From Onthophagus taurus (lineage: Eukaryota; Arthropoda; Insecta; Coleoptera; Scarabaeidae), in the NCBI RefSeq assembly GCF_036711975.1, contig NC_091972.1:6701001-6765000 (forward strand): a stretch of DNA of 64,000 bases, given 5' to 3'. Below the pieces are notes generated by a model. It saw only the letters and a program-made list of their open reading frames with translations, was not told where the DNA came from and did not search any database. Each line of letters begins with the position of its first letter. Positions within the stretch are counted from its first letter, which is position 1. A program made the translations under genes and the position numbers. Below are positions 345-57,560 of the stretch, one piece after another.

Positions 345-530
345 TGCACATTTACCCTTTACTGGGTAACTCTTCTTCTTCCAACACTATAGTCTTCTGT
401 GGCCGTTGGCTTGCATCACAACACCTTTCTAGATGCTTCAGCCATGTTATTCTCTGTGCTTTTATGTGTCGCGCTATGTCTGGTCGAATTCGTGGTTCCT
501 TCTTTTTCTCTACGTTCAATTAGCATCTTT
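345..530 (-). pseudogene. LINE C-terminal scrap (RTE/craniofacial-type), antisense
   Basis: Read on the minus strand, one frame gives a stretch containing IARHIKAQRITWLKHLERC. This resembles the conserved tail after the reverse transcriptase of RTE-like LINEs, where an 'I..R+L.W.GHV.RM' pattern precedes a basic segment. Only this tail survives, with no reverse transcriptase core beside it. The assignment rests on pattern recognition alone, so the family is uncertain. Confidence 0.45.
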
Positions 531-9575: not shown

Positions 9576-10880
9576 TATATTGCCTCATTGAACCGAAAAC
9601 TTTGGCAATGATAAAATTACCCACGTCAATTTCTCTAGCGTCCTCAGATTCATGTGAAAAATTTAAATCGTCATCAGAAGATAGTTCTAAATTTCCATTC
9701 TTTACACTGCTCATCAGACGATTTGTCATCCAAAACATTCCCCGTTGCTTTATCTTTTTCAAAAATCTTTCTTCCTTGGCACCTCATCATCAACAATTCG
9801 CCTCTTCGACTTTTGGTTTTAATGTCTTACGCACCTTCTTGTCTTTCCTACTAGCTATTTCATCTTTTTCGTGCGTGTCAGTGGCGATAATACTTTTCCT
9901 TTCTTGGGGTCCACGTTTTGTGGTTTTTCTTTCACCTGCTTTGGGAAATAATCTTGAGGGGAGACAAATGGTGTAGCTTGAGATGTTGAACTGCTTGTAC
10001 TTGTTTTGTTCGTCCGTTTTTCCAACAGGCAAAGGTCTATCCGTTAAATAAGACGACAAACAGTCTTCCTCTGTAAAAGCTGGTCTATCAAAAGGCGAAA
10101 TAAGCCTAAAAATTTTCTAATACTTTAATAAAATTGTCACTGGTCATCCAGTCTGATTTATGTATCAGTCCAATATCGCCGGTCGTATCAGGAACACCTT
10201 CCATAATTCTTTTTTGGTAGAGATGGTAGAGTTATGCCATTGGTACCTATTATTCCCACTTATTCTTACTTCACCATGTTCTCTTGAGGTTACTTGTCCT
10301 ATTTGATGCTGATCTTTTTTGTCGATTATTTTCTGAACCTTCTGAACCGTGGTGATAACGGTGTGAAAAAGACACACTCTATGACATAAAGTTTGTTTTT
10401 TAAAACTAGAAATAAATTCCTCTAATTAAAAAAAAAATTTTTCACATTTTCTGAATTGAAGCTAGTCAACCTATCTTGTAACCTCGGAAGTTCTAATGGA
10501 TAATGACGAGTTTCTCTTCATAAACCCTGAAAAGCAATCTTCACCCGCCATTTCATTTATAGCCCATGTCTCGGGCATTTTCATAGAATTCTTTTGAACA
10601 TATTCAATTGCTACTCCTCTTACGGCTTTTGGTGTTAAACCATGAGACATGTTATTACATTGCAACAAGTATTCCACAAGTTTAGCTTAGTATTCTTTTT
10701 GCCAAGTTTAGAAATTCATGAAAACCGCTAAAAACTATGGATATTGCCAAATCAAAGGAAACTTAAAAAATTCTGAGGACCTTTATAAATTCCAAGTTAT
10801 TCCAAGTTATATTATATTATTACTTTTTCAAGGTTATTGTTAATAATAATGAAATATGTCAAAATTTGTCAAAATAAAAT

Positions 10881-26489: not shown

Positions 26490-28260
26490 ATATATTTTTG
26501 TATATTGGATTTTAAGTGAAAGTTACTGCAAATGAAACCTTTGAAAGAAATTATTACTTTATACTCAAAAAAAATGTCATGAATATATGATTTCTAATTA
26601 AAATTTAGGCGTTATACTAACTTATTCAAGATTTGTTGGAAAGACAAGTAGCTTTTGAAATTATACTATAGGATTAATAAAATAATGATAAAATTTATTA
26701 TAATTTAAAAAATTATTTTAATTCTATAGGTGTAGTTAGTTTTTTTTGTGTTTTTAGATGTATCATTGCTATGAGGGAGGATAACCAGGGGTGTTCGTTC
26801 CTCTGGCAGAGAGGGTGGCAGCAGGAACGCGCAGAGGCAGCCGCTCGTCCCCGCAATATCCGCATTCCTGGAGCTGGAATCCGCTGCTGACAGTGGCCCG
26901 ATATTGCGCGCCTCGTCTGATAACGACTGCTCGAGGAATGTCGTTAGCCTTTTCCCAAAAATAACGTTTAGACAGTGTTATTTATGGTTGTCACAGAAGT
27001 CGACTTCGGCGTCCCGATATTAAATCCCTCAACCCTCGCAGCATCCCAACTCATCCACCACCAGCACTTCGAAACCCCCAAAAACATTACTTGTATTGTT
27101 TACCTTCGCCTTACACATCCATTAAAACAATTAAATAATTGTATTGAAAAAGAGAACATTCCGAAACATAATGAAATATTTTTAGAATGACAAAGCTTGC
27201 ATATTTACTTTTAGCTTATTATGGATTTTTTGAAAAAGGAATAGAAATTACACGTTTATTGCGTTTATAACAAACCTGCTTAAAGCGACGAAGTTTATGC
27301 AATTATCCGAGTTTATCGGTCAATTACTTTCACCATTTGCATCGTCTTCTTTGCTATCGATACCATTAAATCCTAATATAGACATAGTATCGGCAAGTTT
27401 TCGATTAATATAATCCAACCATGTCCTGAAGCAAGTAGAAATGTTCATGAATGTTAAAACCGAAAAATTTGATTCACCTAAGGGAAAGAAAGGGAATTAG
27501 AAACTCTTGGATTGTGCTTTCTTATTTAAAAAGTACTTTCCCTATATGTACAATATTTACGAATATTCAATTCATATAAAACAATAACAATTTATTTATT
27601 GCGGCTAAATACACCAAATAAAAGTAATAATAATTAGTCGAAGTTGATGTTGTTGTCCATTTTTTAACCAATTTTTTCTTTAATTTAGAGGTAACAAAGG
27701 TTTTTTGTGAGTTTTGCACATTTACTGGTTAGTAAGCCAGTAATGTCTGTTCTAGCAGACATCTTCAGAATAGCTACAAAAGTTGAATTTTTGATAATTT
27801 AAACATGTTACATTTTAGAATTAAAGTAAATTAAATGTAAATAAAATGATACTTGTAGAGTAACGTACAAGTTGAAAATAAAATTTTTTTTGAACAGCAG
27901 AAACTATTATATTGTTAAACTAATGGCGAAATTCTAAAGTAAGTTTTGGAATCTTTTTAGTGTTACGAAATTTATTGTATACCTTACACCTATGTCCTTC
28001 ATTGGTGGATTAACAATATGAACTCCAGTTATTACAGATTGACTTGCCTCTATATTCACCTAAGATGGTTCAAAACAACAAGCTTTGAAATTTGCTTCAA
28101 TCTGATCAAGATTCTGCAAGATTTTCTCCAAATCTTCTTCAGTTTTCACACTTCGCGTGGAATTCCTTTTTTTTATGTATTATGCATAGCACAATTGTAT
28201 AACACCTAGTAAATACATAGTAATTAATTATTTATTTTTAACACCAAATTAAACTTGATA
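26490..28260. other. Non-coding interval
   Basis: A GC-richer block at about 26780-27080 includes a CT-rich to GC-rich stretch. The rest is AT-rich and holds no recognisable gene. The last 250 bases may be a rearranged flank of the antisense LINE that follows. Confidence 0.35.
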
Positions 28261-28264
28261 ATGT

Positions 28265-29215
28265 GCAACATCCAGAAATACGGCGGTGCAGACTTTATTT
28301 TCTTCCATTGCTATTTGGATAGCATTCGTTATTCTATGCACTTGATCTATTGTTGCATGTTTATTCCGAAACGCAAATTGATGTGGTGGTATTAGAGCTT
28401 TTTCTTCTAAGACAGGTTTTAGTCTGTTTAATAGTAATTTTTCAAGCAGTTTTGATAGTAAGGGTAATAGTGAGGTTGGCCTGTATGATGTAACATCTGG
28501 GGGGTTTACCAGGTTTTGGTATCATTATTATTTCATCAACTTTTCATATGCTTGGGAAGTATTTCTGTTTAAAAGCAGCATTAATTATGTGTAATAGTTT
28601 TGTAATCGCCCGTTTTGGTAGATGTTTCAATGTTTTTCCATTAATTAGGTCATAACCTACTGATTTCTTCATATTTAGTTTTGTATGTCATAATACAGTT
28701 CTTTCATTCTTACACATGGTATATTACTCTGCTGATCACTTTGAATTACGCTAGGGACACTATTTAGCATAGTTGTTGGACTGTCTGATGTAAAAGTTTC
28801 TTTTAGATGTTCAGCAAACAAATTAACTTTTCTTGATTACTCTTAGCCCAATTTCCATTATTATTTCGAATTGGAGGTGTATGTGTTTTTGGAACTTTAA
28901 GCTTTCTTGTTGCCTTCCACAGAGAATAATCAGTACTGGCATCGTCAGTAAGGTCTTTTAAGCAATTTTGAATAGTATTATCTTTGTGGCTATCTGTTAA
29001 TGCTCTTAATTCGGCTGTTATTTTATTTAATTTAGTTTTATCACTAGGAATTCTATTGGTTTGCCATTTCTTTCTTGCTCTAATGAATTTAGGATAAATA
29101 TAGAGGTTATTAATATTAGGTTTTGGTGTTGAGGCCGTTTTGTATGTCTTTTAAGAACTTTTTTACTTCATTGTTTCGCGTGGCATGATCAATTAGACAT
29201 TGATTTTCAAAAAGC
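28265..29215 (-). pseudogene. Jockey-type LINE: linker and N-terminal reverse transcriptase, antisense
   Basis: The minus strand reads through the endonuclease-RT linker (YPKFIRARKKWQTNRIPS, DASTDYSLWKATRKLK), then FAEHLKETFTSDSP-like residues, SYRPTSLLPLLSKLLEKLLL and HQFAFRNKHATIDQVHRITN, ending in motif A, VFLDVA, at about 28275. The catalytic motif-A Asp is there, but the following AFDKVWH and everything beyond are missing. At least three frameshifts or stops occur. It is a 5' and 3' truncated, dead copy. Confidence 0.9.
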
Positions 29216-34282: not shown

Positions 34283-34462
34283 TTAGTCCTTTTTTTCCTT
34301 TTCATCTTTGGCCTTTTGTTTTTGTCTCATTTTTTCGGCATCTCTAAATTTTCTTTGTTCCAATGTGAGACCATCGCTTGTGGAAGATTTCTTTTTGGAA
34401 TTTTCTTGTTGTTTCTTTTGGTTTTTTTGTCGAGCTAAATCTCGTTGGTTACCACGAGTCAT
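34283..34462 (-). CDS. SERF-like small EDRK-rich protein
   Basis: A 59-residue highly charged protein starting [18 protein letters not shown], the signature N-terminus of the SERF/4F5 family. It is followed by a Lys/Ser/Asp linker ([10 protein letters not shown]) and the helical REKMRQKQ-type tail ending DEKEKKD. SERF proteins bind acidic or amyloid-prone partners and promote amyloid conversion; they are soluble and found in nucleus and cytoplasm. The frame stays open eight codons further upstream but has no ATG there, so the MTRGNQ start is chosen. It is a single exon, with no clear AATAAA downstream. Its 3' end faces away from the cuticular cluster, and its promoter lies about 270 bp from the 3' end of the next gene. 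Confidence 0.88.
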
Positions 34463-34642
34463 TATTTTATGTTGATTATTTTGCACATTTATTTTTAGAT
34501 TAGAATTCCTTTGAATTGGATTAAAAATTTTCTGTCATCATAAAAAGTTGTCAACGAAAATATTTAACTAGTAACTGAATTGTGACAGGGTCATATAACA
34601 ACATAATAAATAACTACACGACGTTATTAAAAAAAGAACAAG

Positions 34643-34730: not shown

Positions 34731-35583
34731 TTAGTTCCAACCATGTCCTCCTCCGCCATGCGATGATTCTTCTTTGTAGATGTGTTTATAAACTGGAACA
34801 TGTACTGGATAAGGTTTGGCAACATGAACAGGATAATGTTTTTCAATTTCAATCTTGTATGGCTTCTCAATGTAGTGTGGAACAGGTTTTTCTACGGTAA
34901 TTGGCACCTTCTTTTCAATTTCTTGAGGGACCAACTTGTAAATTGGAACTGGAATTGGATGGGGAACGTTAATGTGGACAGGATAAGGTTGTGGAACTGG
35001 GACTTTGATAACTTGAGGTACTGGAACGCCAACTGGGTGAGGAACTGGGACTCCAATTTTTTTGATAACCGTCACTGGAATTGGTTTAGTTACTTCGATG
35101 GTTTTTGTTGGGATGTTGATGTGTTCATCTCCACCTTGGATTCCATGAAATCCTCCAGAATATGAAGAACCTCCAGAAAATCCATGACCACCTCCACCAA
35201 ATCCACCCCCAAAGCCTCCTCCAAACCCATGACCACCTTGATCACCTCCTCCTAATCCATGAAAATCGCCTCCTCCTCCTCCTCCTCCTAATCCGTGAAA
35301 ATCACCTCCTCCACTTGAAGAACCTCCATACCCTCCTTGGGAACTATGTCCAATATCACCACCTCCACCACTAGATCCACCAGATGATCCACTGGGACCG
35401 TAACCTCCATAGCTTCCATGACTCTGACTTTGATCACCTCCCCCATAACCTCCTCCACTGGCTGAAAAACCAGCGTATGATGTGCAGATTAAAGCGAGAA
35501 TGATCGCAGATCTCTGGAAAATAAAACAAAAAATGAAACGATTTTTAGAATGTATATTTTTTATCATAACTTACAAAAATCAT
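34731..35583 (-). CDS. Secreted Gly-rich, Val/Pro/His-rich structural protein (paralog A)
   Basis: Two exons: 35575-35583 (three codons, M-I-F) and 34731-35513. They are joined across a 61-bp phase-0 intron with GTAAGT donor and TTTCCAG acceptor. The 263-residue product has a signal peptide (MIFRSAIILALICTSYAG). A Gly/Ser spacer (about 20-130) carries blocks such as GGGGDFHGLGGG. A C-terminal domain (about 134-250) has alternating Val-Pro pairs: KKIGVPVPHPVGVPVPQV, PQPYPVHINVPHP, IYKLVPQEIEKKVP, YIEKPYKIEIEKHYPVHV. A Gly/His tail follows. The pattern is that of insect cuticular or extracellular matrix proteins and may belong to the Vajk-type group, which I cannot confirm. A role in cuticle is inferred from composition and gene structure. 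Confidence 0.88.
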
Positions 35584-35695
35584 GATGAAGTTAAAAAAAT
35601 TTCTTCTTCCAAACTCTACAAAGAAAACCTTACTTAAATAGTAAGTCACAAGCGAAGAAGCTTGAGTACACTAAGAAATGTAAAAGCAACGTGAG

Positions 35696-35703
35696 TATAT
35701 ATA
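35696..35703 (-). promoter_or_regulatory. TATA box of cuticular gene A
   Basis: TATATATA on the minus strand, 113 bases upstream of the ATG. The sister genes B, C and D have TATAAAAG closer to their starts. Confidence 0.6.
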
Positions 35704-35719
35704 CCCGTATTTTGATGAT

Positions 35720-37030
35720 AGGTGGGGTCACAAGGCACGTCAGGTGAAAGGATTCTCTTCGCGGACGAGATGGTTCGAAAATTAAGGAAAGGAACTCATC
35801 TCGGAAATAACTTTGCGGTTAGGTTGGAAATAAGAGAGTTATTATTATTTCATGGCTCCCAGCTCCACGGTCAATGCTAACGGCCATATGGCTTGCGTAA
35901 GATTTTCAATGGCAATTTATTCATTTCCATTAAATAATACCAAAGGAAATAAATTCTTCGACAGATGTTTGAAGATTTCCATTAATTTCATTAAAATACC
36001 TTTTACAAAATAAAACGTACGTTGAAACATGTACAAACACGGTTAGTTTAGTAAAAGAATAACCAAGATTAATTGTTACAACACAATATCGTACCTATTT
36101 ATATTCATTTCAAAAGATTTTGTATGAAACTAAAGCTTTTCTAATTTATTTCAAAAATTACCAATTTTAGCGTTAATTAAAAAGCTGCTTTATAACACAT
36201 GAAAGACAAACAAGGCAAGTTTTTATCAAGTGAAAATCTCTCTGAGGAATTTTAATCATTCTAAAACGTTTTTCCCAGCGCGTTTAACATCTGACAAGAG
36301 CACCATTGCGGTTGGGACACAACTACGTTCGAACGATAAGGGTCAGAAGAGGAGGTTCTCGCGTTGCGTGCCGACTACAATATACAATTTTTAATTAAGG
36401 TATCACGTTTAATTTAATTAACAGTTATGACCGGGGCCCGTCCGTTTAATCAACTCGACGATCTGACGTTGTTAGTTTTCTTTTTTTTTTTTCGTTTTTC
36501 TATTTCTCTTTTTTCACCTGAGATCATCATCCTCATCATATTTTTCGCTGTTATCAAAGTTCGATTACTAATTATATGGAAGATCTATAAATCATTAAAA
36601 ATGGAATATATCAATTTTGGGTTTTACATAAAATTAGTACATAATTAAAAATTTACAAAAAAACACTGACAATGAGAGAATCTCGCAAAGTCAGAAACCA
36701 AACTCGAACCAGAACTCAACCCAACCTAACTCGAAACTAGACTATAACCCAATCCGAACCCAACCCAACCCGAAACCAGACTTCAACCCGAACTCAAAAC
36801 CAACCATTTCAATCTCACTTCTTTGCATTTGAGAAACAGACAGCTGGGATCTGTCTCAGCATTGCGCATTTTTTTCTATTTCATCGACTTATGCTTCCTT
36901 TCCCTCTCTGCATGTTCCTTAACCATCATAATCGACCTTTATAATCAACCATGGTTATGAATAACTGATGATCAGCGACTGTTTTCATTCGCGTATCTCA
37001 CGACTCTTACTCTTTCCTATGGTATTAAGC
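35720..37030. other. Non-coding interval upstream of gene A
   Basis: Proximal promoter and intergenic DNA. A degenerate AACCCAACCC/CCGAA minisatellite lies at 36690-36810, of the same word type as 33475-33575. Confidence 0.35.
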
Positions 37031-37034
37031 TGAG

Positions 37035-37335
37035 GATTTTCTTGTAGTACTGATTCCATAACGTGCCACACACTACGATCCTTGTGGTACCTTGCAGCTC
37101 ATTGCCTTCTCCTCTTTGTTTTGGAGGAGAATCGTCCTCTGAGGCATAGAGAGCGATATGATTATACAAGGTTGCTCCTCACGCAATCATTAAAGACATG
37201 CAGGAAGGTCCACGGGTCTGCTTCAACGCAGACTCTAACTATTTTATTGGTGACGTTATTTTTCCCGGAAGTCCTTCTGGCTGTCAGCTGGGCAAGGGCG
37301 TCATCTTCTTCTTGGTGAAGGGATCGTCTTGCTCC
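37035..37335 (-). pseudogene. R1-type LINE reverse-transcriptase scrap, antisense
   Basis: The minus strand reads ALAQLTARRTSGKNNVTNKI then VEADPWTFLHVFNDCVR. This fits the 'RRAPGPDG..N..+..A+...P..FL.+FN.CL' stretch before the reverse transcriptase core of R1-like LINEs. It then degrades. No motif A or YADD box is present. Confidence 0.5.
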
Positions 37336-37339
37336 TCTA

Positions 37340-39000
37340 TGCGTAACGGTGGTTGACTTCTTCCGAGACTGTGGGGAAGAGCTTATAATACTGCCTTTGG
37401 ATGGTGTCGAGTGTTCATTCTTTTATTGAGAACCAGATACGCTGTGCTCAAATTCCTGACAAACGTCCTTCCACATCTGTTCCATGAATTTCTTAATTCA
37501 TAATAATAATGGAGTGGTTTCTGCGTTTTCCTTTCCACTTTCTTCGCCCTCTGCAGTCATCTATACTTTCTTATGCATTCTTTCCTAGCCTCGGTAATTT
37601 CTTGGATCCGCAAGTCAAGAGCCACCACTTCGGTTTTCTGAGACTGTCTTTGTTTGCTCTTCATTTAAGCATTAACTACCTAGGGAGGGAGAATTTGATA
37701 AATTTCTTCTACGTTGTACCTTCGCTAGATAGGACGTTATTGCTTTAGTACTTCAAGTTCACTTCCTAGGCCAGTGGCGGATTGGCAAAATCTTCTGAAG
37801 CAAATGTTAGATCTACGAATTTGCGATTGACACAGGGGAGCAGAAAAAAAGTATGTTTCAATTGTAGGATGATGGGCAAATATGCTTGGATTGTAGGATT
37901 TCTTCAAAATATTTTCTTCAAAACATTCAAAAAGTTAACTCTTCAATTTTCACAAGTAATACAAACGCATTAACATCAAAGTAGAATGATTTCCAATTAA
38001 AGCTGAATTGCAGCTGACACAATGAAATTAAATGGAAAGTTATTCCTGCCGGCGTTGTTAACGTAATAGTTACAGAAGGTGGTGTGGACTTCAGAGGGAC
38101 AAATTTAAATACGGATTATGTGAACCCATTTACGACGTGATGCGTGGACGCACCTTTAGTTTCTGCTAAGGCCTGTTTCATTTATTTGTATTAAATTAAT
38201 GTTTAAATTGTTAATTTATTGTAAATTAAAAAATGATTTTTTAATCGAATCTGCAAACTGGGAATAAAGGTTGGCTATATGTCTTCGACCGATAAAGCAA
38301 GAAGAATCGACCAGCAGCGTCGTCGTCGCCGTCGTCGTGCTCCTTTTTCAGTCTTTTTCTTTTCGTTTTCTTTCTTTCGGCGCCGCTCCGATAACGCAAG
38401 GGAGGAATGTTCAATTTAATTCGGCGAGACGTATCTAAATTAATCTTTTCGTTTTAATATCGACGAAGAAGGGAATTTTAATTGGTTATTTGTGTGCTTA
38501 AGCGTACCGGTGTCGAAATCTTAAATTTACAATGTGTGCGTTTCTTAAGTTATCTTTAAAAATTATTAAATTAGGTGAATAAAGAAAAAAAGTAGATTAT
38601 TCTAGAAAGTGAAAATTGAATTTAAGAAAATATTAAAATTAAATATAAATACATTCAGGTATTTTATGGCGTTTAAAACTTTCTTCCGTTACATTCTCAC
38701 ACGAGATCGAACACCGTTCTAATCATTTACGTTCTCATTTCCTGTTCTTTGCTTCGTTAAATCAACTGGAGACTTGCGCCGTTGTAATTATGCATACAGA
38801 TGAGGTAGAAATTGAATCAATATCTGAGATAATTTCATAAATAATTCAAAACGGCTCCGTAAAGAGTGTTTTAACCCTTGACAACCAATTAACTCTTGAT
38901 GTAATCGTGTAACTTTATATTACAAAATCTCTTATTTAATTAAAAAGAGTCTAAAAGAAGATTGAAAAATAAAAAAAAAACGTGATTAAGATTTTATGTC
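37340..39000. other. Non-coding interval
   Basis: AT-rich with a GC-richer block at about 38285-38430 containing a CGTCGTCGCCGTCGTCGTGC simple-repeat run. No gene recognised. Confidence 0.35.
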
Positions 39001-39005
39001 ATATA

Positions 39006-39015
39006 TTTATTTATT
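39006..39015 (-). terminator. Poly(A) signal(s) of cuticular gene B
   Basis: Two overlapping AATAAA hexamers on the minus strand, about 275 bases after the stop. They are the nearest canonical signal found. Confidence 0.45.
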
Positions 39016-39289
39016 TTTTTTTTGATGAGATTTTTTGATATGTACATTTTTTTAACAAAAAATAACAAAATAATTATAACAATCAAGATGAAAAAAATGA
39101 AAGAATGAGGATGATAAGAAATGAATTTCTGCAATTACGTTAAGACAGTTTCTGGAACAATCGACGTAAGTTCATTTTCTGTATAAAATAAACTACTAAA
39201 TTAGATCACAAGAAACTAACAAAAATGATTACGTCCATCATTCCAGTTTTAAACCAATTTAAAAATAAATTGAAAAGCCAACAATTAGA

Positions 39290-40255
39290 TTAATGATGTT
39301 CACCATCACCACCATGATGTTGTTTGTCATTAACATAAACATGTTTGTAAACTGGATAATAAACAGGGTATGGTTTAGCTACATGTACAGGATAATGCAT
39401 TTCAATTTCAACTTTATAAGGTTTTTCAATATAGTGTGGTTCAGGTTTTTCAACAGTCACTGGAATTTTCGTTTCGATTTCTTGGGGAACCAATTTGTAA
39501 ATTGGGATGGCAACTGGGTGGGGAACATTAACATGAACTGGATAAGGTTGGGGAACTGGAACTTTAATAACTTGAGGCACTGGAATATGAACGGGATGTG
39601 GTTGAGGAACTCCTATCTTTTTAATTATTTCCACTGGAACAGGTTTTGTGTATTCGACAGTTTGTGTTGGAACATTAACATGTTCTTCTCCACCATCACG
39701 TGGTTGATATTGTTCTTGATTATCATCTCCTGAATCTCCTAATCCAGTGAAACCTCCTCCATAACTTCCATCATCTCCACCTAAGTCATGAATTCCACCT
39801 CCTAAATCATGATCTCCACCTCCTAAGTCATGAGATCCACCTCCTACGTCATGGGATCCACCTCCCAAATCATGGGATCCACCTCCGTAGTCAGATCCAC
39901 CTCCTAAATCATGGGAGCCACCTCCTAAGTCATGAGATCCACCTCCTAAATCGTGACCTCCACCTCCTAAGTTATGTGATCCATAATCTTGTCCTTGATC
40001 ACCAATTCCACCACCACCTCCATACTCTCCACTATCATTTTGGTTGCCTTCATCGTGTTGAATAGAGTTTTCATCACCTCCACCATCGTTTCCATGGTCG
40101 TCACCTCCATATCCTGCCCCACTAGGTATGTAACCTGCTTGAGATTTCCAGGAAAAGGTCAGCAACAAACCAAGAAGAACAATCTGCAAAAGAAATTATT
40201 TTTTTTTTTAATTATGTTAAAACAGCGTTTTAAATGTTCTTACGAGATATTTCAT
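39290..40255 (-). CDS. Secreted Gly-rich, Val/Pro/His-rich structural protein (paralog B)
   Basis: Exon 1 is 40244-40255 (M-K-Y-L). A 60-bp phase-0 intron follows (GTAAGA donor, TTTTGCAG acceptor). Exon 2 is 39290-40183. The product is 301 residues with a signal peptide (MKYLIVLLGLLLTFSWKSQAG). The acidic Gly-rich spacer (about 25-165) is dominated by a tandem heptad GGGSHDL and variants (GGGDHDL, GGGIHDL, GGGSHDV), roughly ten copies. The C-terminal domain (about 172-288) aligns without gaps with the other three paralogs, including PVPQVIKVPVPQPYPVH, IYKLVPQEIE and HYIEKPYK. The tail is HHGGDGEHH. The His- and Asp-bearing repeats could bind metal or cross-link (inference). It is the longest family member here. 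Confidence 0.9.
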
Positions 40256-40323
40256 GGTTTCTAACGTGATTAGGTGAAGGTAAGCAAAGAGCGAACTGAC
40301 GCCAATTCGAACGGATGTAGTCA

Positions 40324-40331
40324 CTTTTATA
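40324..40331 (-). promoter_or_regulatory. TATA box of cuticular gene B
   Basis: TATAAAAG on the minus strand, about 70 bases upstream of the ATG. Confidence 0.7.
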
Positions 40332-40339
40332 GCATGGGG

Positions 40340-43300
40340 TGGGGCTGATCTGTTTGCTCGCTGCTCCCGTTACCCCTTTCTCTATAAGCTTCCGCAAAAA
40401 ATAATAGGATTAAAAAAAAGTTTCTGGTTAATCAATCAGAACGAATTCATGATATCTATTTTCATGGTATTTCCTTACCCGTTCTGAACACGATGTAAAA
40501 TGGTGATTATAAAACTTATTACATTCCAGCCCTAATTGATTCATTAAAAACTTTAATGTTTAAAGTGATTGTTATCGATCAATTTTAAAGTTACAAGTAA
40601 TTTAAAGAAAATTCATCAAATATTTTGGTATTAATGATTTACGTTGCAATTTTTTTATGGATATAGAAAGAATACCCTACTTTCATTGTTGTTATAAAGA
40701 GAACATAATACTTCTCTTAAACAATTTTAGCTCCACATTCTGAAAAGAGAGAGAATGGTAAAAGGAACATACAATTGCGGATTACGTCTCTCCACTCATA
40801 AGATCTTTGTAAGAAGTTTACTTCCGAGACGGGAACGTGCGGTCAGCGGACGCAGAGAAAGTAAAAGTCTTCTGGCTCTGGCTACGGTTTACAGTTCGAC
40901 ACACTTCGTTTACCGTCCAAGTTCAAGATTATAACTGCGCGTTGCTCGCCGAACATAATTATACACATACAATGGAAGTTTGAAGCATTACATTTTCTTT
41001 CTTTGCGGGGGAACGGAATTGTTTCGGTCGATGTACTTTTTGATTTTCGATAAGAACGTTTTAAAATTAGATGGAACCTGATTTGATAATTCTCTTTGTG
41101 AAAGATTAAAAAAATTACATTTGTTATTTTACGCTTTCAAAAGAATGAATTAAAAGAAAAAAAATTATAAAAGTGCTGAGTAATTATTTTTAAAACAATA
41201 AAATTTGTTTTCTTTCTCATTTAATTTTAGTAGACATAAATTATTTCAAAAAAGTTGTTATATAAAAGAAAGTTCGTTAAGCTTTTTTTGTTTCATTGGA
41301 TTTTGAATACGATTTTATTTCCTTCCGGTATAAATTAAATTATTTAAAAATTGATTTTTTAGAAAAGTTTAATGTTTTCTAGAGAAACCTTATATTAGAT
41401 TTCTTTTATACTAAAACTGGTAAATATATTGAAACCAATAGATTATTGATGATTTTTTAGAAAGCGAACACGACCATAAAAGGATCATTTAACAATAGAA
41501 AAAAATTCCTATTAAATCCAACAACACTGTTATTGAAATATAATAACTTTTGGTTCACTTATATAAGGAAAAGAAGTTTTTTGGACTTCAAAAGACACCG
41601 TGCATAAATGTGATATTAAATTCCATTAAATCATGTCACTGATGTATATGAATTGACTTTACTTTGAATTAATGGTTCCTCTGATCTATGCAGTTTAGAT
41701 GACGGACAAATTCAATTTAAAATTGTCCTGATTAAACCGGATATTACGTGGTGTCACTGCCATGAATCAATTGGGATGTGTTCATTATAAAAATTATAAC
41801 AAAATATAAATATCAATTTTCAATCAAACCGAAACTCATATGTACTTTTATAATTTTGAAAAAGTGTTAGATATTAAATTTCAGCGGGTTGCATAATTGT
41901 AATAAGTGAAATCAAAATTTTATTTAATATGTAGATGGCTTATCACACCAGTTGTAATGATAGGTAGCTCAACGAGTTAAAATGGTCTTTTCTCACACTT
42001 GATTAATCATACTTAATGACCAACCCAACCCAAAAATAAAATAGTAAATCTGTATAAGTTTTTAAGCTAAATAGGTCAACCTGACATGACACTTAACACA
42101 TGGAAGTGACAATTATTCCGTTTAATTCTATAAATATTTATTATAGAGACATAGCGTAAGATATTATAGTGATATGAGGGGATATAAAGTAAAGTAAAAG
42201 TGGTATAAAGTGATTCATGATAAAATGAAGTGTAAAAAGAGCTACATTAATAAGATAATGCAATTTGAGATGAGTCATGATAAAATATTTATGGTCTAAT
42301 TATATAGCAGTAAAAAAGATATGGTACTTTATAACCTCACACCTCTGCTTGTAATAACACACGATGTATTTGATATGTAATATGTTTTGGCTAACTCAAA
42401 AATCCTTTCATTTCTACACCAGCAATATATCACATGCTTTTGAGAGTTCAACCATGTAAAAAGACTTCCACATATGATTATGTACCGTTCAACATGATAT
42501 TCCTATACAAACATGTCAAAAACTTTGGTTAGGCCCTAATAGCCATACGTGTATTTAAATATGTTTGAATAATATAGTGTTAAATACATCTTCTAACCAA
42601 ATTTATTAACTTTAACAATCTTAATCAATTGCGATTAAAAAATCGTAAACGTGTTAGATTAAATTTAACACCTTTTTAACTATCATTAATTTAATTTAAA
42701 AAAAAAACAATTTTCTTTCTTCGCGTTTATTTTACGATGTTTGTCTTCTTATTACCACTTTATGGCATGAAGGTGATTAAATCTATACAATAGACAATTT
42801 ATATAGTGGTAAAGAAGAAAATAATTTCATTGACTCGGGTTCTTTAGTGTTTAATCTGTAGATTTATTAGTTGTAGTTTAGAACTAATGTAAGTTAAAAG
42901 AAAAAAAAATTAAATTAGATTCGCGTTGGCTTTCTATACCATCTGGAAACTTTCACTAAATCGATTTCATATTAAACTTGTAAAATTAACAAAAATCTAA
43001 AATTAACTTATTTTATTGATTTATTTATTTATTTGCGTTTCATCAAAAATAACATTTCAATGTAATTTTATATATAATTTTTTATAAAATTTGATTTTTG
43101 ATAATTTTTGCTCAATAATAATTGTTTTCTGATTTTTGAAATTTGTCTTCTTTAAATTTCTATTTATGGTTCACTCAACCCGACTCTCTTTCACCTCATT
43201 TTTTTTTTTTTTCAAATGATAATACCCTTTCTACTCATACTTTCAAAACGATCCGCTTTCCAAGCAACTTCTTAAACCTTTTAAACTTGTTAAACCCAAA

Positions 43301-43360
43301 AAAAGGGGAAAAATGAAAAGAAAACGAAAAAATTTGAATGCCATCGATTTTTAATTAAAA
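40340..43360. other. Intergenic DNA between cuticular genes B and C
   Basis: AT-rich, about 3 kb, with no recognisable coding frame or transposon protein. A modestly GC-richer promoter-distal block lies at 40800-40960. Confidence 0.4.
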
Positions 43361-43367
43361 AAACTCA

Positions 43368-43373
43368 TTTATT
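43368..43373 (-). terminator. Poly(A) signal of cuticular gene C
   Basis: AATAAA on the minus strand, about 115 bases past the stop. Confidence 0.55.
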
Positions 43374-43487
43374 TTTATCAAAACTTATCATTAATCAACA
43401 ATAAAACAAAAAAAAAACAAAACAAACAACAATCATCAACAATCTTTTTTTCAAACTATGACTAGTTTAGGTTCCTAAAAAATTCCT

Positions 43488-44099
43488 TTACCATTTCGAT
43501 GGTACTTTATGAATGTGTTTGTAAACAGGAACATGAACTGGATATGGTTTCGAAATATATACAGGATGGTGCTTTTCAATTTCAATTTTGACTTCTTTTT
43601 CAACTGGATACGGTACTGGTTTTTCAACTGTAATTGGTACTCTTTTCTCAATTTCTTGTGGAACCAACTTGTAAATGGTTACTGGGATTGGTTGTGGCAC
43701 GTTTACATGAACTGGGTAGGGTTGTGGAACTGGGATTTTGATAACTTGTGGAACTTGAACGCCAACTGGATGTGGAACAGGAACCTCAATTTTCTTGATG
43801 ACTGGAACGTGAATGTGATGAGGTTGTTCGACTGTTTTGACGGGGATGTGGATGTGTTCGTCCTGAAGGTGTTCACCACCTCCTAAACCATTCAATCCGT
43901 GATCACCCCCATGATCGTCGCCCCCGAAATCTTCCCCGGAAGAACTACCATGCCAACCATGGTCACCATCTTCACCAAGCTCGGCAAATGTTGGTCCAAA
44001 AACCACCAAAGCAAGGATTAAGAAGGATTTCTAAACAAAAATTAAAAAATTCTTAGCGAAAGTAGACTTTTTTTTGTTTTAACTTACGGCAATGTGCAT
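43488..44099 (-). CDS. Secreted Val/Pro/His-rich structural protein (paralog C)
   Basis: Exon 1 is 44088-44099 (M-H-I-A). A 57-bp phase-0 intron (GTAAGT donor, GTTTAG acceptor) is followed by exon 2 at 43488-44030. The intact product is 184 residues: signal peptide MHIAKSFLILALVVFGPTFA, a short acidic Gly/His spacer (about 22-60, with GGDDHGGDHG), and the conserved domain (about 63-180). It diverges from its sisters in places. HYIEKPYK becomes YPVEKEVK, HYPVHV becomes HHPVYI, and KKIGVP becomes KKIEVP. It lacks the Gly/His tail and ends KVPSKW. Reading from the first in-frame internal Met instead would lose the signal peptide. Confidence 0.88.
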
Positions 44100-44177
44100 G
44101 GTAAATGATTTTCTCAAGTGAACTGTTTGAGAACGAGAGAAGTGAGCTACTGATGCCTTCCAGACCGCGCCTAAAGT

Positions 44178-44185
44178 CTTTTATA
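44178..44185 (-). promoter_or_regulatory. TATA box of cuticular gene C
   Basis: TATAAAAG on the minus strand, about 80 bases upstream of the ATG. Confidence 0.7.
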
Positions 44186-44189
44186 CCAT

Positions 44190-44664
44190 GATAGAAGGGG
44201 AATGTTACGGTTTACTATTACTTGTCTTGTAGACGATTTGGATACGGAGCACAATTAGCGGCTTAAGTTAAGCGTGTTATTAAGAAGGAAAAAATTGGAT
44301 TTGCTGGCGGACGGTCGGTGACCTTGAGAAGAAATTTCTAGTTGCAAAAAAAAAGGAATTGTCGAACGAATTTATAAACTAAATGAAAACATTTTTATAC
44401 TCCGAAAAATGTTCTCATTTTTATGCACTGATTGATACTTGTTAGATTTTCGCTAAAATTTTATAGTGGATTATATTTTCTGACTTGGAAAATTGGCAAA
44501 ATTATTTTTAAATGAGTAAAAGTAGTTATTAAATAAGCATTAAAGAGATATCGGTCTGATTTACGAGGATTGGTTTAATCAGGAAGTTGGAAATTGGTGA
44601 ATGTAACAAACTAAGATTAATATTCATATTGAAAGAAAAAAATTTCTAGTTTTTAATAGTAGAA
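44190..44664. other. Upstream region of gene C
   Basis: Non-coding promoter-proximal DNA leading into the satellite array. Nothing else recognised. Confidence 0.35.
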
Positions 44665-46010
44665 TACAAGATCTGTTCTTAAAATTTAGAACAACCAAAC
44701 ATTTCAAGTTGGGTTTAAAGAATCATTACAACGATGATTATGGAAAGTAAAAAATAATTTATGGCACATTAAATCTTCGTCAAATTTGCTTTAAAATGTT
44801 CATTATTTTATGATGATATCTCCACTCGTTCTTAAGATACGATTTTTTTAAATTTATACTTCAATCTATAACAATCAAGCATTCAGAGTTGGATTTAAAA
44901 AATCATAACAGCGATGGTTATGGAAAGTAAGAAAATATTTATGGAGCATTAAATCTTCATTAAATTTGCTTTAAACTGCATTTTATTTTACAATGATATC
45001 CCAATTGGTTTTTGAGATACGTAAAGATTAGTTACCCTTCCATTTATATGTAAGGTTATGTAAGGTTGGAATCAAAACATCATAACTCTGGGATTTGAAG
45101 TTTTGAAGAAATGATCTTCAAAATGTGAAATACTAAATAAATGTACTTTAAATTGCTTTTTATTCTATGAAGATATCTCATTTAGTTTTTGAGATACGTT
45201 TTTTTTAATATCTGTTCTTAAAATTTAGGACAATCAAACATTCCAAGTTGGGTTTAAAGAATCATAACAACGATGTTTATGGAAAGTAAAAAATTATTTA
45301 TAGCACATTAAATCTGCATCAAATTTGCTTTAAAATGTTCATTATTTTATGACGATATCTCCACTCGTTCTTGAAATACGATCTTTTTAATTTTATACTT
45401 CAATCTATAATGATCAAGCATTCAGAGTTGGATTTAAAAAATCATAACAGCGATGGTTATGGAAAGTAAGAAAATATTTATGGTGCATTAAATCTTCATT
45501 AAATTTGCTTTAAACTGCTTTTTATTTTACAACGATATCTCAATTAGTGTTTGAGATACGTAAAGGTTAGTTACCTTAGCATCTATATTTAAGGTTATGC
45601 TAGGTTGCAATCAAAAAATCATAACTCCGAAATTTTTAATTTCGAAGAAACAATCTTTAAAACATTAAATACGAAATAAATTTACTTTAAATTGCACTTT
45701 ACTTCATAAAGATATCTCATTTAGTTTTTGAGATACGATTTTTTTAATATCTGTTATTAAAATTTGAAATAATCAAGCATGCCAAGTTGGGTTTAAAAAA
45801 TCATAACAACGATGTTTATGGAATGTAAAAAATTATTTATAGCACATTAAATCTTCGTCAAATTTGCTTCAAAATGTTCATTATTTCATGATGATATCTC
45901 CAGTGGTTCTTGAGATAAGACATTTTTAAATTTATACTTCAATCTATAACAATCAAACATTCAGAGTTGGATTTAAAAAATGATAACAGCGATGGTTATG
46001 GAATATTTAT
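44665..46010 (+). repeat. 539-bp higher-order satellite (three ~180-bp monomers), about 2.5 units
   Basis: The phrase ATCTGTT.TTAAAATTT recurs at 44671, 45210 and 45749, an exact 539-bp period. Each unit is three diverged monomers of about 180 bp, each carrying a 'GGTT..AAA.AATCATAAC' step, a 'TAAAT...TTTGCTTTAAA' step and 'GATATCTC....GTT.TTGAGATACG'. The array stops in the middle of a monomer near 46008. It lies between divergently transcribed genes C and D. Confidence 0.92.
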
Positions 46011-46895
46011 GTACCAACCAAAAATTTCAATACCAATCTAACATTGAAATTCCATTCAACTTCATCTTCTTAGTTGTTATAATTTAATTCTGATTTAAAA
46101 TTCAATCAACTCCAGCCAAATGTAAAATAAAAAACCTTCTCCATTAGAAGTAATTAAATTCTAAAATTCCGTTATTATCTAAATTACCATAGAAAATCGT
46201 TGGCGTTTCGTTGAATTGCAAGGCTCGTTACATTATTCGCCGTTTTTGAATCTATTAAAGAAACCTGAATAAAATATTTGTCCCCATTGAATAATCATGG
46301 TGGCGATTTGAGCATCGTTCGATTAACGAAACGAACGAAAATTAAAAAGAAAAGTATACCTGGAAGCCGTCCGAATCGCATTAAGGCCGTAAATTAGTCA
46401 TAAGGTTTACATTCGCGCATTTCCCAGGCGCTCACGCTAGCACATATGCATAATGCATGGACGCTGTAATGTTTAATTTGTGCCCTTAATGTATGTTTAT
46501 TGTTGTAAATTATTTTTGCTATTCGTTTATGCCGTTTAGTCACGAAATGGCCATTTTATGTTCGATCTTTAAAATTTTGTTTATTCAAATTTATTTTTTA
46601 AGAGGTATGGTTTAGTTTTTAAAGTAGATGATATTCTTTTATGAATTAAGAAAGTTAATTTATTGACGAATTTTTTTTCTTCTTTCAAAACGGAATTGTA
46701 AACAACTTTTTAAATTGACACGGAAACATTTTCACTCACATTCTTATTTTTAAGATAATTTTTTGCTTTTTTAAGTTCTTTTCGATATCGCTGACAACTG
46801 GTGCGCGACAAAAGCCGTCTCCTCCTATCACATTCCAAGGTGAATTTTTACATGAAAGCTAACGAAAGATTTTAATCGCGAAGCAGCTACTCCTT
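46011..46895. other. Upstream region of gene D
   Basis: Non-coding. A mild GC-rich stretch lies at 46350-46460. No gene recognised. Confidence 0.35.
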
Positions 46896-46901
46896 TCTCC
46901 C

Positions 46902-46909
46902 TATAAAAG
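46902..46909 (+). promoter_or_regulatory. TATA box of cuticular gene D
   Basis: TATAAAAG, 65 bases before the ATG. A plausible initiator CCAGTC lies near 46932, about 30 bases downstream. Confidence 0.75.
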
Positions 46910-46973
46910 CACCTCGAAGATCAGATGAATGCCAGTCTAAGTCGATCTTTCACTCTACTTACACACAATCACC

Positions 46974-47547
46974 ATGCAGACATCAGTAAGTCATCAAATG
47001 AATATTATAATTTAATATGTTAAATATTATTATTGTTTTTTAGTTTGTTGCGGTTATCCTGTCGGTTTCCTGTGCTTTAGCACGTGCAGGATTCGCTGGA
47101 AGCTACGGTGACGATCACTCAACTTATTTCGGGGCAGAATACGGTGGAGAAGAACATGTTTACACCCCAACAAAAACTGTCGAATATACCAAACCAGTTC
47201 CAGTGCACGTTGTTAAGAAAATTGGAGTTCCCGTACCACACCCTGTAAATCTTCCAGTTCCTCAAGTTGTTAAGGTTCCAGTTCCACAACCTTATCCAGT
47301 TCACATTCATGTTCCCCAACCGGTTGCTATCCCAATTTACAAATTGGTGCCACAAGAAATTGAAAAGAAAATTCCAATCACTGTTGAAAAACCGGAACCA
47401 CATTACATTGAGAAACCTTATAAAATTGAAATCGAAAAGCATTACCCAGTACATGTCAACAAACCATATCCAGTTCATGTTCCAGTTTATAAGCATGTCT
47501 ACCAACATGAATCTCACCATCATAGTCACGATGATGGTCATCATTAA
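46974..47547 (+). CDS. Secreted Val/Pro/His-rich structural protein (paralog D)
   Basis: Exon 1 is 46974-46985 (M-Q-T-S). A 58-bp phase-0 intron (GTAAGT donor, TTTTTTAG acceptor) is followed by exon 2 at 47044-47547. The product is 171 residues: signal peptide MQTSFVAVILSVSCALARAG, only about 20 spacer residues with no Gly-rich block, then the conserved domain (about 42-158) and a His-rich tail (HESHHHSHDDGHH). The domain is very close to paralogs A and B. It is the only plus-strand member, transcribed away from gene C across the satellite. It shows that the C-terminal domain, not the Gly-rich part, defines the family. Confidence 0.9.
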
Positions 47548-53552: not shown

Positions 53553-54836
53553 TTATAACTCATCTTTACCTTCTTCACTTTCAAAATTATTATTAACATC
53601 AACATCAAAATCTTCTTCAATAACCGATAATTCACCATCTTCGCCATTCCACCCGATAATTTCTTTAACTTTAGGGATTCCATTTTCCAAAGAAAAGGTA
53701 CTAACCACCTTCCCAGCTGATAATTCTCTTAAGAATTCTTTAATACCATTCGTTGAAAATGATCCTTTCATTAAAATATATTTCATTTTACTTTTATTCA
53801 ACGCGACGAGAGTGGGGTATCCAAAACCGCCAACTCCCAAAGTTTCTTCAAGTTCTAATTGGCTTCCGGCTTCCAACCAAATCCAACCCCAATTATTCCG
53901 TCGAAAAGTGTTACCCATTATTTTTAAAATTGCTATATAATCGTTTCTACAAGATGATTGACAATCTAAAATGTGAGGTAAAACGCTTATAACACATAAC
54001 ATTTTCTCTGTGCATTCTTCAAGAATTGATTCCTGTGTTAATTCTTTGATTTCCGGTGGTGGTTGTTGATCTTGTAATAAGTTTAATGCAAATGTAACAA
54101 TTTCGTCTACTTTTCGAGGTCCTTGATAAATTTCAGGAAATTTATTTGTTTTATCGCCAAGTGGAAATATTTTAATTGTAGGATAACCGCTTATGGAATA
54201 TTCGTGAGATTTCATTGTATTAACAGTGCAATCTAAAGCACCTAATTTCACTTTTCCTTTCAATAACTTTGCTGCTTTTTCCCATTCTGGTTGTAAATTT
54301 TTACAATGACCACACCAAGGTGCGTAAAATTCCACTAACCATAAATCATTCGATTTTAGAACGTGCGAATCAAAATTATTATCAGTTAATTCGATAACAT
54401 CGGATATTTTTTGCTTTCCTTCTATTCTTTCTATACGTTTTTCAACATTTTTTGCAAGTACTCTTAAAGCTTCTTGGACGAATCCTTGAAGAGTTCTTGC
54501 TCCTGTGTAAGTAATTGGTTTCTTTTTCAATCCGAAAATAGTTATTGTTGGAAAATCACGGATATCATATTTTTGACCAAAATCTGTATGTTTCTCCACA
54601 TCTAAAGCACCTACTTTAATTATTCCACGGAGTGATTTCGCCACTTTTTTCCACGTCTCAACTAGATCTTTACAATGGTTACACCATGGAGCGTAAAATT
54701 CAATCAACCAAATTCCATTATCATCAAGAACTAATTTGTCGAAATTTGATGGCGATAAGATTATCACATCTTCAGGGAAATTATAAAGAGAATTGACTGA
54801 GGAAATAAAAAATAGAGGAAATATTATTGAATACAT
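53553..54836 (-). CDS. CaBP1: Protein disulfide isomerase, P5/PDIA6 type (single exon)
   Basis: A 427-residue ER-luminal oxidoreductase that forms and shuffles disulfides in secretory proteins. The start is the ATG at 54836; the frame is open ten codons further but begins with TTG there. It has a signal peptide (MYSIIFPLFFISSVNS). Thioredoxin domain 1 has EFYAPWCNHCK (Cys 52 and 55) and cis-Pro DFPT. Thioredoxin domain 2 has EFYAPWCGHCK (Cys 175 and 178) and cis-Pro GYPT. A redox-inactive C-terminal domain has WGWIWLEAGSQ and GFGYPTLVALN, then an acidic tail and KDEL at 424-427. The two active a-type domains plus one b-type domain and this length identify P5/PDIA6. The first active site reads CNHC, not the usual CGHC, which should shift its redox behaviour. 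No introns are seen. Confidence 0.95.
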   Translation of the reverse strand: MYSIIFPLFFISSVNSLYNFPEDVIILSPSNFDKLVLDDNGIWLIEFYAPWCNHCKDLVETWKKVAKSLRGIIKVGALDVEKHTDFGQKYDIRDFPTITIFGLKKKPITYTGARTLQGFVQEALRVLAKNVEKRIERIEGKQKISDVIELTDNNFDSHVLKSNDLWLVEFYAPWCGHCKNLQPEWEKAAKLLKGKVKLGALDCTVNTMKSHEYSISGYPTIKIFPLGDKTNKFPEIYQGPRKVDEIVTFALNLLQDQQPPPEIKELTQESILEECTEKMLCVISVLPHILDCQSSCRNDYIAILKIMGNTFRRNNWGWIWLEAGSQLELEETLGVGGFGYPTLVALNKSKMKYILMKGSFSTNGIKEFLRELSAGKVVSTFSLENGIPKVKEIIGWNGEDGELSVIEEDFDVDVNNNFESEEGKDEL

Positions 54837-54839
54837 CGA

Positions 54840-56185
54840 CTTTTTTGATGACTTGTTGATACTCAAAATAAATTGTCACTATGGTTTCTTATTAGAATGG
54901 ATGATTTTTGATTTAAACCTAAACTAGTTATGTATTCGTTTCAAGAAATACAAACGCTTTCGCCCCCTCCTGAATATCATTTAACGAATTTATCTTATCC
55001 GCAATCTAATTTTAATTAATCGTAACCGTCCGTAGCCGCATAACTGACTCGGGTACAGATAGTTACAGATCTCGTCTCGCCGATAAAAGCTCGGTAGGGA
55101 ATGCAAACCATCCGTGTTCATCACAAAATACCGCCCCAAACCGCGTCCCGCGCATTCCTCCCCCGGTTTGAATTTATAATTTCGGTCGAAAAGAACGGAA
55201 CCTAAAAGCGATTAGGTCTGCGATAAATGCATTTTTAAACGGGTCGCGATAAGGTCGCATAAATAAAACGCAGGGCACGAATAGAGAGATATTTCGAATT
55301 TGTGGGGGCCCCTTTCGACTTCGGAATTCCAACGCGAGAAGAATGACGCGTGGCATTCAGGTAACTTGTCACGGAGATTCTTCTTCTCGAAAAATAAAGA
55401 AACAAGAGGAGAGAAAAAGGATTTCGAAATTCAAATCTTTCTTTAACTTTTTTTTATTTTAGTTTATTTGAAGCTTTTTTAGTATTAAAAGGATTTTCTA
55501 TTCAATGTAGTATGTGCAAAATGAAGTAATACGGTAGCATTTATGCTACAAATGCCATCTTCGGACCGTTCGAATTGCCTGGTTATGAAAGCTTACTTAC
55601 ATAACATGTTAGAACTGACTCGCTTCGATGATACTTTCTCTACATAGAGAATTACATCATATACCAAGTTCAAGGTGCCTATATTTTCACGACCATTTCA
55701 CTTTTTTACCTCTTCATCTTCAAATGTGTCTTCTTCAAGATAGATAGTTTAGATAGAACAAAGCTGCTGGTTAGATACATGTTATAGACTTCAATTAGAG
55801 GTTATCAGAGATTAGCAGTGCCAAATCTCACAAATTTCATGTGTTTATGTATGCAAGCACTTTTTCATATACTCGACTTCTTCATAAACAACCGGTTGAA
55901 CAATATTTGCAACCTTGAGAAATATAGAAAAGATGTAAAAAAAGAAGAGGAGTTAACAAACAAGAGAAATAAAATGAGAGAATTCATTGGGAATCTAAAA
56001 GGGAATGAGTCACGTTTAAATTCTATTAGGATGCAATTGAACGGAAGGCATTTATGGAACTTTTGATTTTGGCAGTTGATTTGGAAATTAATTTTTCAAA
56101 TCATCTTTCAAGACCTGCAGGCGTGCACTAAAGATACAGTTGCACTAAAGAAATGGAACTAATTTGTTTGGTTCATATGCATAGA
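54840..56185. other. Non-coding interval upstream of PDIA6-like gene
   Basis: A GC-richer, CpG-containing block at about 54960-55340 lies within 500 bp of the gene start and could be its promoter region. The rest is AT-rich. No TATA box was identified. Confidence 0.35.
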
Positions 56186-56189
56186 GACT

Positions 56190-57560
56190 GAGGTGAGTTA
56201 TGTATTCCCCAACATGTTCCAAATTCTTACGAAAATCAAATACTAGAGTTCAGAATTGCTTCATTATACAATTATCCTACATTATTTCATGTTTTATGTT
56301 GTCCATTTTTTATCAATCATTAGGTCTTCTTGTTCTACTTATTCTTGCCCACGTTCTACCCCACGGTGTTGGATCTGGAATCCATCTCCAGTAGGGGTTT
56401 CTTCATACTGGATTCTTGGTCTACCCTGTTTTCTTCTTTCTTCTGGTATTACATTGAACATTTTCTGGTTGGTATACTTTCCACATCCATTCGAACAAGT
56501 TGGTCATACCAAAGCAGCTGTTTCTCTTCTGTCTACTCTACTAAAGCTGTCAAGCTTAGTTCTTTGGTGCTTTTGTTTCGTATTCTGTATATTAGTTATT
56601 GGTTTTTCCTACTATACTATTTTTCGCAGATACTTCTTATTTTTGATTTGTATCTGTCTAAAATTGTCCAAGTTTCAGACTCGTAGATAAGTGTGAGTGT
56701 ATAGATGGATTTGTATAGATATAATTTTGTATTAGTGCTTTTGCTATTCTCTTATATATTTCTTGATCTATTTTGCCATCTTTACTAATCATGATTCCGA
56801 GATAGTCGTATTTTTCTACTAGCTCTGGTCATTGTACATCTATTATTGCATCCGTGCTTCCTCATCCATCTGCCTCGGTGATATGTACGATCTTGCTTTT
56901 GTTCCTGTTTGTTCTTCATTTAGATGTTTTTTATCCTACCAAGACTCTATCTACTTTGTCTATCATTAGTACAATATCGTCTATATATGCTTGGCCTGAC
57001 GTACAGATTGAAATTAGGTTGTGGTATCCCAATTTCGTCGACCTTGTTCGATTTTTGACATCTTTTATTATTGATTTATTATTATTCTCTATTCCAAACT
57101 CATCTGATGTCTTTCCATTGAGTCCAACTGTTCCTATTAATTTTGTGTATATAATTTTGATTACTTTGCCTAGATTTAAACTTGCCCTTAGTTTATTTAA
57201 AGCATTCCACATAGGTTGTCTGGGTATCTGGTCGAAAGCTGCATTCAGATCCAGCAAAGCTAGGTATAAATCCTTAATTCTGTCTACTGTTTTCTCTATT
57301 ATGTCATTAAGTGATCCCGGGTTTTTCGGTTAGCTCGGAAATCGCCATTACACTTCTTCAAGTCTATCTTAATTGTTTTTCTAAAATTTTTGAGTAAAGT
57401 ATTATCTCCGTATTTTTAAGAGTTGGTGGTATGTAATCTTCGCCTGTTGCTTTTCCGTTTCGGGTTTTTTTTAGGGCATCTCGCATCGTTCACGCTCATC
57501 TCCTCTTTTGCCATTTTCTCTTCTCCTTCTTGAAACTCTATTCGATTTTCAGCATCCAGT
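56190..57560 (-). pseudogene. RTE-type LINE reverse transcriptase and C-terminus, antisense
   Basis: The minus strand gives motif A, LDLNAAFDQIPRQPMWNAL (57257-57200), then VIKIIYTKLIGTVGLNGKTS. After a gap comes motif C, QAYIDDIVLMID (YIDD in place of YADD, about 56975), then LYTHTYLRV-like residues and the tail WYDQLVRMDVESIPTRK near 56490. Upstream, basic residues and ARCPKKNPKRKSNRRR precede the core. Numerous stops and frameshifts occur. Plus-strand frames here are shadows. Confidence 0.85.

Follow-up and report, generated by a model that had tools for sequence, protein, structure and literature searches.

The CPLCP family of structural cuticular proteins was reportedly named by Cornman and Willis in 2009. 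Its members are defined by a high proline content, chiefly in the form of PV and PY pairs, and are rich in P, V, K and Y (PMC7497268). In this report, we describe four genes, A, B, C and D, that probably encode proteins of this kind. They lie between positions 34731 and 47547 of a 64,000-nucleotide stretch of DNA (‘the window’) from the scarabaeid beetle Onthophagus taurus (assembly GCF_036711975.1, contig NC_091972.1, positions 6,701,001 to 6,765,000, forward strand). Each protein has a C-terminal, Val/Pro-rich domain of constant length, in which hydrophobic residues and prolines occupy alternate positions. This two-residue phase is our firm result; a degenerate octapeptide period within the same domain is a softer one.

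A table in PMC13073896 lists four CPLCPs in Tribolium, five in Drosophila, 28 in Anopheles gambiae and none in three of its thirteen species; this conflicts with a review (PMC12426002) that restricts the family to Diptera and Lepidoptera. CPLCPs are reported across insect genomes generally in PMC6417726, where two other bees are described as having no CPLCP transcripts in the abdominal integument. Vajk-4 is given as the ortholog of CPLCP3, and as contributing to the formation of the cuticle barrier, and Vajk4 as a CPLCP gene (PMC8667434, PMC10335707). In developing Bombyx scales, CPLCPs are among the top-ranked proteins, three abundant ones containing 6–8% His, and the family is credited with three conserved sequence motifs (PMC8062583). 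Anopheles CPLCPs were recovered solely in the final insoluble pellet (PMC5395146), and expression in Microplitis is mostly pupal, with exceptions (PMC7497268).

The gene cluster and its paralogs

The gene structures, and the Val/Pro domains within them, are as follows. All four are models predicted from the sequence alone; lengths are in amino acids (aa).

34731..35583, minus strand: gene A, 263 aa; exon 1 35575-35583, intron 35514-35574 (61 bp), exon 2 34731-35513
34776..35129, minus strand: Val/Pro domain of A, 118 aa
39290..40255, minus strand: gene B, 301 aa; exon 1 40244-40255, intron 40184-40243 (60 bp), exon 2 39290-40183
39335..39688, minus strand: Val/Pro domain of B, 118 aa
43488..44099, minus strand: gene C, 184 aa; exon 1 44088-44099, intron 44031-44087 (57 bp), exon 2 43488-44030
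43509..43862, minus strand: Val/Pro domain of C, 118 aa
46974..47547, plus strand: gene D, 171 aa; exon 1 46974-46985, intron 46986-47043 (58 bp), exon 2 47044-47547
47149..47502, plus strand: Val/Pro domain of D, 118 aa

Genes A, B and C are consecutive on the minus strand, and D is on the plus strand, oriented away from C. Exon 1 comprises three codons in A and four in B, C and D. It is followed in all four by a GT..AG intron of phase 0 (i.e. between codons) and then by a single long exon 2, much as an earlier interpretation of the same DNA (‘the sequence-only reading’) had proposed when it described 3–4 codon first exons and phase-0 introns of 57–61 bp. Short first exons within the signal peptide are common among cuticle genes.

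A six-frame search of the O. taurus assembly (290.8 Mb in 33 contigs) with the domain of D returned at least six matches at E ≤ 0.001: A–D and two others, E and F, on contig C11 at 29.57–29.58 Mb. With these two added to the four, the predicted family has at least six members in this genome, a count that is a lower bound. The domains of E and F are 51 and 50% identical to that of D, respectively, and align with those of A–D without gaps over the final 110 domain residues. Like B, C and D, E and F have a 4-codon exon 1; their phase-0 introns are 63 and 62 bp, and their spacers are short. All six gene models begin with a hydrophobic N-terminus, judged by eye, and A–D are probably secreted by way of a putative N-terminal signal peptide. 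None of the six contains Cys after residue 20, and His makes up 6.8–10.5% of the precursors of A–D.

Inside the cluster, between C and D, lies a diverged, satellite-like array (44683-46003) with a unit of ~180 bp, 7.3 copies and 68% matches.

Probable assignment to the CPLCP family

We consider it probable that A–D are a cluster of CPLCP (Vajk)-type structural cuticular proteins. This assignment rests on composition and on the density of PV and PY pairs, compared with the family’s description. Among the 49 stop-to-stop frames of at least 100 aa in the window, PV/PY density is 4.7–8.4 per 100 aa in A–D vs a maximum of 0.93 among the remaining 45. The domains of A–D are 19.5–21.2% P, 19.5–21.2% V, 9.3–11.9% K and 5.1–9.3% Y (the last three given without a formal background). 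Proline in PV and PY pairs, richness in P, V, K and Y, low complexity and probable secretion are all CPLCP-like, and we found no difference in kind between A–D and this family. The R&R consensus domain of the CPR proteins was not found: Pfam returned nothing for the exon-2 proteins of A–D at E up to 1 and, with the limit raised to E 10, no R&R match for the six domain or exon-2 proteins. Comparison of the domains with Pfam and NCBIfam yielded sub-threshold matches alone, A2M_recep (E 0.84 and 2.1) and SslE (E 0.28), which were set aside.

The sequence-only reading had pictured cuticle-type proteins that are secreted and carry a Val/Pro domain of constrained length, which is likely right. Its pointer to the Vajk proteins was a good one: the sequence character fits CPLCPs, with which papers equate Vajk. 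For that same reason, namely that the family has already been described, much of the novelty it saw in an ‘under-described protein system’ falls away, and the cluster is most likely an ordinary example of a known cuticle family. Neither the alternation nor the eight-residue period can be called new, as the founding CPLCP paper may describe them.

Composition and a hydrophobic N-terminal stretch leave the tissue unfixed, and the proteins could instead act outside the body cuticle, in eggshell, silk, gut lining or an immune-linked matrix, for example. In Drosophila, the Nimrod gene cluster includes Vajk-1 to -3 but not Vajk-4. To judge by the title of Cinege 2017, cuticular genes reportedly belong to that cluster. 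We regard a role of this sort as very unlikely. The family is tied to cuticle by a cell cluster described as campaniform, probably socket, cells (PMC10335707), by its presence in Bombyx scales (PMC8062583) and Anopheles cuticle (PMC5395146), and by its mostly pupal expression in Microplitis (PMC7497268). A search of the genome for EMI domains gave two matches, one on C10 (E 2.5e-10), the other on C2 (E 0.018), and none on C7 or C11, which may speak against linkage to the Nimrod cluster, with the proviso that EMI may miss some Nimrod genes.

A domain of fixed length and two-residue phase

The chief point of A–D is the phased Val/Pro alternation of the domain, as a possible reason for its rigid length. 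The domain is 118 residues long in all four (‘about 117’, and gap-free, in the sequence-only reading), has no internal gaps, and is 61.9–83.1% identical between genes across the six A–D pairs. Among all six paralogs, 31 of the 118 columns are identical. The domain is under strong purifying selection, since the ratio of nonsynonymous to synonymous divergence (dN/dS) is 0.07–0.15 in every A–D pair, at dS values of 0.73–2.14. The lowest dS, 0.73, belongs to B and D, vs 1.1–2.1 for the other five pairs, hinting at later duplication of these two genes, or at gene conversion between them across opposite strands.

At one parity, V, I, L, Y or F occupies 37–41 of 59 positions in the domains of A–F, and Pro no more than one; at the opposite parity there are 22–28 Pro and 6–10 of these hydrophobic residues, together with residues that are polar or charged. 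The resulting asymmetry, 27–35, exceeds the maximum reached by shuffled sequences (19–23; 5000 shuffles per domain) in six domains out of six. When positions 17–112 are divided into blocks of 16 residues, the alternation is never reversed in any domain. Comparison of paralogs at different offsets, carried out on 7 of the 15 possible pairs, gave identities of 43–82% at register zero and 26–38% at shifts of ±8. At odd shifts, identity falls to 1–9%. The constant length may stem from the two-residue phase, and need not imply a globular fold.

The eight-residue period emerges when self-identity is scored against shuffles that preserve parity. The z values at lag 8 are 4.6, 3.4, 3.6, 5.0, 2.9 and 1.1 for A–F, and in five of the six domains this lag ranks first among the 16 even lags tested. 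Over positions 9–118 of the six domains, the octapeptide consensus is K (44%), P (40%), V (56%), P (57%), V (56%), P (39%), V (35%; I 26%), P (40%; E 29%).

Spacers and slippage

Between the N-terminus and the domain, each protein has a spacer, measured here from residue 21 up to the domain:

35130..35462, minus strand: spacer of A, Gly-rich, 111 aa, 52% Gly
39689..40135, minus strand: spacer of B, Gly-rich, 149 aa, 39% Gly
43863..43982, minus strand: spacer of C, Gly-rich, 40 aa, 35% Gly
47092..47148, plus strand: spacer of D, short, 19 aa, 26% Gly

These counts bear out the earlier estimates of ~115, 150, 40 and 20 residues. The flanks of the domain are rich in Gly and His. The spacer of B holds a DNA tandem array at 39780-39983 (21 bp, 9.9 copies; Tandem Repeats Finder (TRF) score 240), and its length can therefore drift by slippage. 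DNA repeats inside the domains are weak (TRF score 64 or less); in C, a 24-bp repeat is present in 2.4 copies at 43594-43651, with a score of 63–64. Low slippage of the domain DNA may thus help to hold the domain at its length, and could conceivably be the only reason for it. That the spacer tunes mechanics is possible but unsupported.

Points against, and the question of a compact fold

Several results weigh against reading A–D as CPLCP-type proteins with an extended, periodically phased domain. No Pfam model scored above its cut-off for any of the six proteins. Residues 1–16 of the domain show a mixed alternation, which in C runs the opposite way. The eight-residue period is weak in F, where z is 1.1 at lag 8 and 2.8 at lag 16, and lag 18 also scores in C (z = 2.9) and D (2.1). 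The best internal matches of 24 residues, sought in A, D and F, are separated by 50 residues in both A and D, and by 66 in F, distances that are even but not multiples of eight. Their scores were 76 in A and D, vs maxima of 55 and 62, respectively, in 200 shuffles, and 72 vs 67 in F. A pure octapeptide register was rejected, since these spacings misfit it even though they keep parity. Finally, AlphaFold2 modelled mature D poorly: the best of five models had a predicted local distance difference test (pLDDT) score of 41.7 and a predicted template modelling (pTM) score of 0.12. DSSP assigned nothing on this model, so that strands in the monomer are unsupported. The run used an alignment of the four window sequences and included no control protein, and is weak evidence.

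The same model bears on a different reading, in which the domain folds compactly into a defined structure and serves as a head for cross-linking or chitin binding, and the length of the Gly spacer tunes the mechanics. A gap-free 118 residues, 31 of them identical in six paralogs, under strong purifying selection, are what such a fold might show; and the terms ‘chitin-binding protein Vajk3’ (PMC9405971) and ‘chitin binding potential’, for Vajk2 (PMC13207783), favor a chitin-binding head. However, the pLDDT and pTM values speak against a compact fold, no Pfam chitin-binding domain was matched, and a two-residue alternation over nearly the whole domain is unlike an ordinary globular core. Nor does tuning by the spacer sit well with the DNA tandem array in B, by which length can drift. 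We judge this alternative unlikely. The ‘defined fold’ of the sequence-only reading finds no support in the AlphaFold2 result, although with a four-row alignment that result is inconclusive. A phmmer search of the PDB with D found nothing at E up to 1. The sole PDB profile match at E up to 10, 5w82_C (E 0.025, 48 residues), was rejected as compositional.

A possible mechanism

If A–D are CPLCP-type cuticular proteins, they would be secreted by epidermal cells during cuticle deposition. The domain would remain extended, with a hydrophobic Val/Ile face opposite a face of Pro, Lys, Glu and His. With Pro confined to one parity, NH donors would be missing from one edge of the strand and retained on the other. 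Strands could pair through the edge that retains them, and through the hydrophobic face, and so build filaments or sheets like those of articulins instead of folding into a globule. Covalent locking into insoluble cuticle could follow by way of His, Lys and Tyr. Insertions or deletions of odd length would swap the two faces, and others that are not whole units would shift the register, which would account for the fixed length. The Gly spacer would be a permissive, flexible lead.

CPLCPs are reportedly widespread among insects, three are abundant in Bombyx scales, and those recovered from Anopheles were insoluble, yet the domains described here match no Pfam model above cut-off and, by sequence, no convincing solved structure. 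The two-residue phase offers a testable reason why the domain keeps its length, and a simple rule by which an assembly unit could be designed. The annotation of this genome gains six probable structural cuticle genes.

Promoters and neighboring features

A TATA box and an initiator-like site precede each gene:

35670..35703, minus strand: promoter of A, TATATA and initiator-like TTAGT, 29 bp apart
40295..40331, minus strand: promoter of B, TATA box and initiator-like TCAGT, 32 bp apart
44149..44185, minus strand: promoter of C, TATA box and initiator-like TCAGT, 32 bp apart
46902..46936, plus strand: promoter of D, TATA box and initiator-like CCAGT, 30 bp apart

The spacing between the two elements is 29–32 bp in all six genes (A–F); F carries a second TATA farther upstream.

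Seven open frames, chosen by eye from the 60 kb around E and F, were compared with Pfam. They comprise two cytochrome P450s, a carboxylesterase, an M24 peptidase, a zinc-finger protein, a deaminase and a 7tm protein, the last of these matching just under the Pfam cut-off. The zinc-finger gene is of the C2H2 type, with a zf-AD match that is also under the cut-off. The P450 frames (L009:4237-5643, minus strand, 469 aa; L011:1157-2479, minus strand, 441 aa) flank the E/F pair.

Elsewhere in the window are the following:

524-1009, plus strand: probable retroelement fragment, endonuclease/exonuclease-family match
10878-12788, plus strand: malic enzyme open frame
22182-23662: tandem array, 364 bp x 4.1 (alternatively 181 bp x 8.1), 96% matches, with recurring open frames of 80 aa, unlikely to be genes
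28252-28521, minus strand: probable retroelement fragment, reverse transcriptase
34286-34534, minus strand: SERF-like, small EDRK-rich factor frame, directly downstream of A (PF04419, E 1e-12)
53553-54875, minus strand: disulfide isomerase-like protein ending in KDEL, with two thioredoxin matches
56934-57329, minus strand: probable retroelement fragment, reverse transcriptase, under the Pfam cut-off

Scans of the window for tRNAs (with bacterial settings) and against Rfam gave no match.

Comparison with articulins

PMC8062583 credits Cornman and Willis with the likeness of CPLCPs to the articulins of protists. Articulins and alveolins, proteins of the protist membrane skeleton, resemble the domain described here in having a low-complexity, Val/Pro-rich medial domain with VPV triplets and repeats, and they form filaments. 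A survey of protist epiplastins also mentions insect proteins that contain many VPV modules, occur once per genome and carry a titin-like annotation, and places the articulin/alveolin threshold at more than three VPV triplets (PMC6212826). The domains of A–F contain 4, 2, 3, 4, 3 and 4 triplets, so that three of the six exceed it. Articulins repeat every 12 residues (PMC4303705), whereas the period here is eight; at lag 12, z ranges from –0.7 to 0.4 across the six domains, and no 12-residue period was found. On these two counts, we make no claim of membership in the articulin family. Articulins, moreover, are intracellular proteins of the membrane skeleton, yet the plateins bear signal peptides (PMC4303705).

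By analogy, the domain may nevertheless function as articulins do. A more speculative extension, which we put forward as doubtful, is that it serves as a molecular ruler: ~13 degenerate octapeptides, with nearly all prolines brought to one edge by the strict two-residue phase, would form a one-edged beta ribbon that assembles by pairing into insoluble filaments of set length. Such a ruler would be the animal counterpart of the protist articulin skeleton, evolved independently and built from a unit of eight residues where articulins use twelve.

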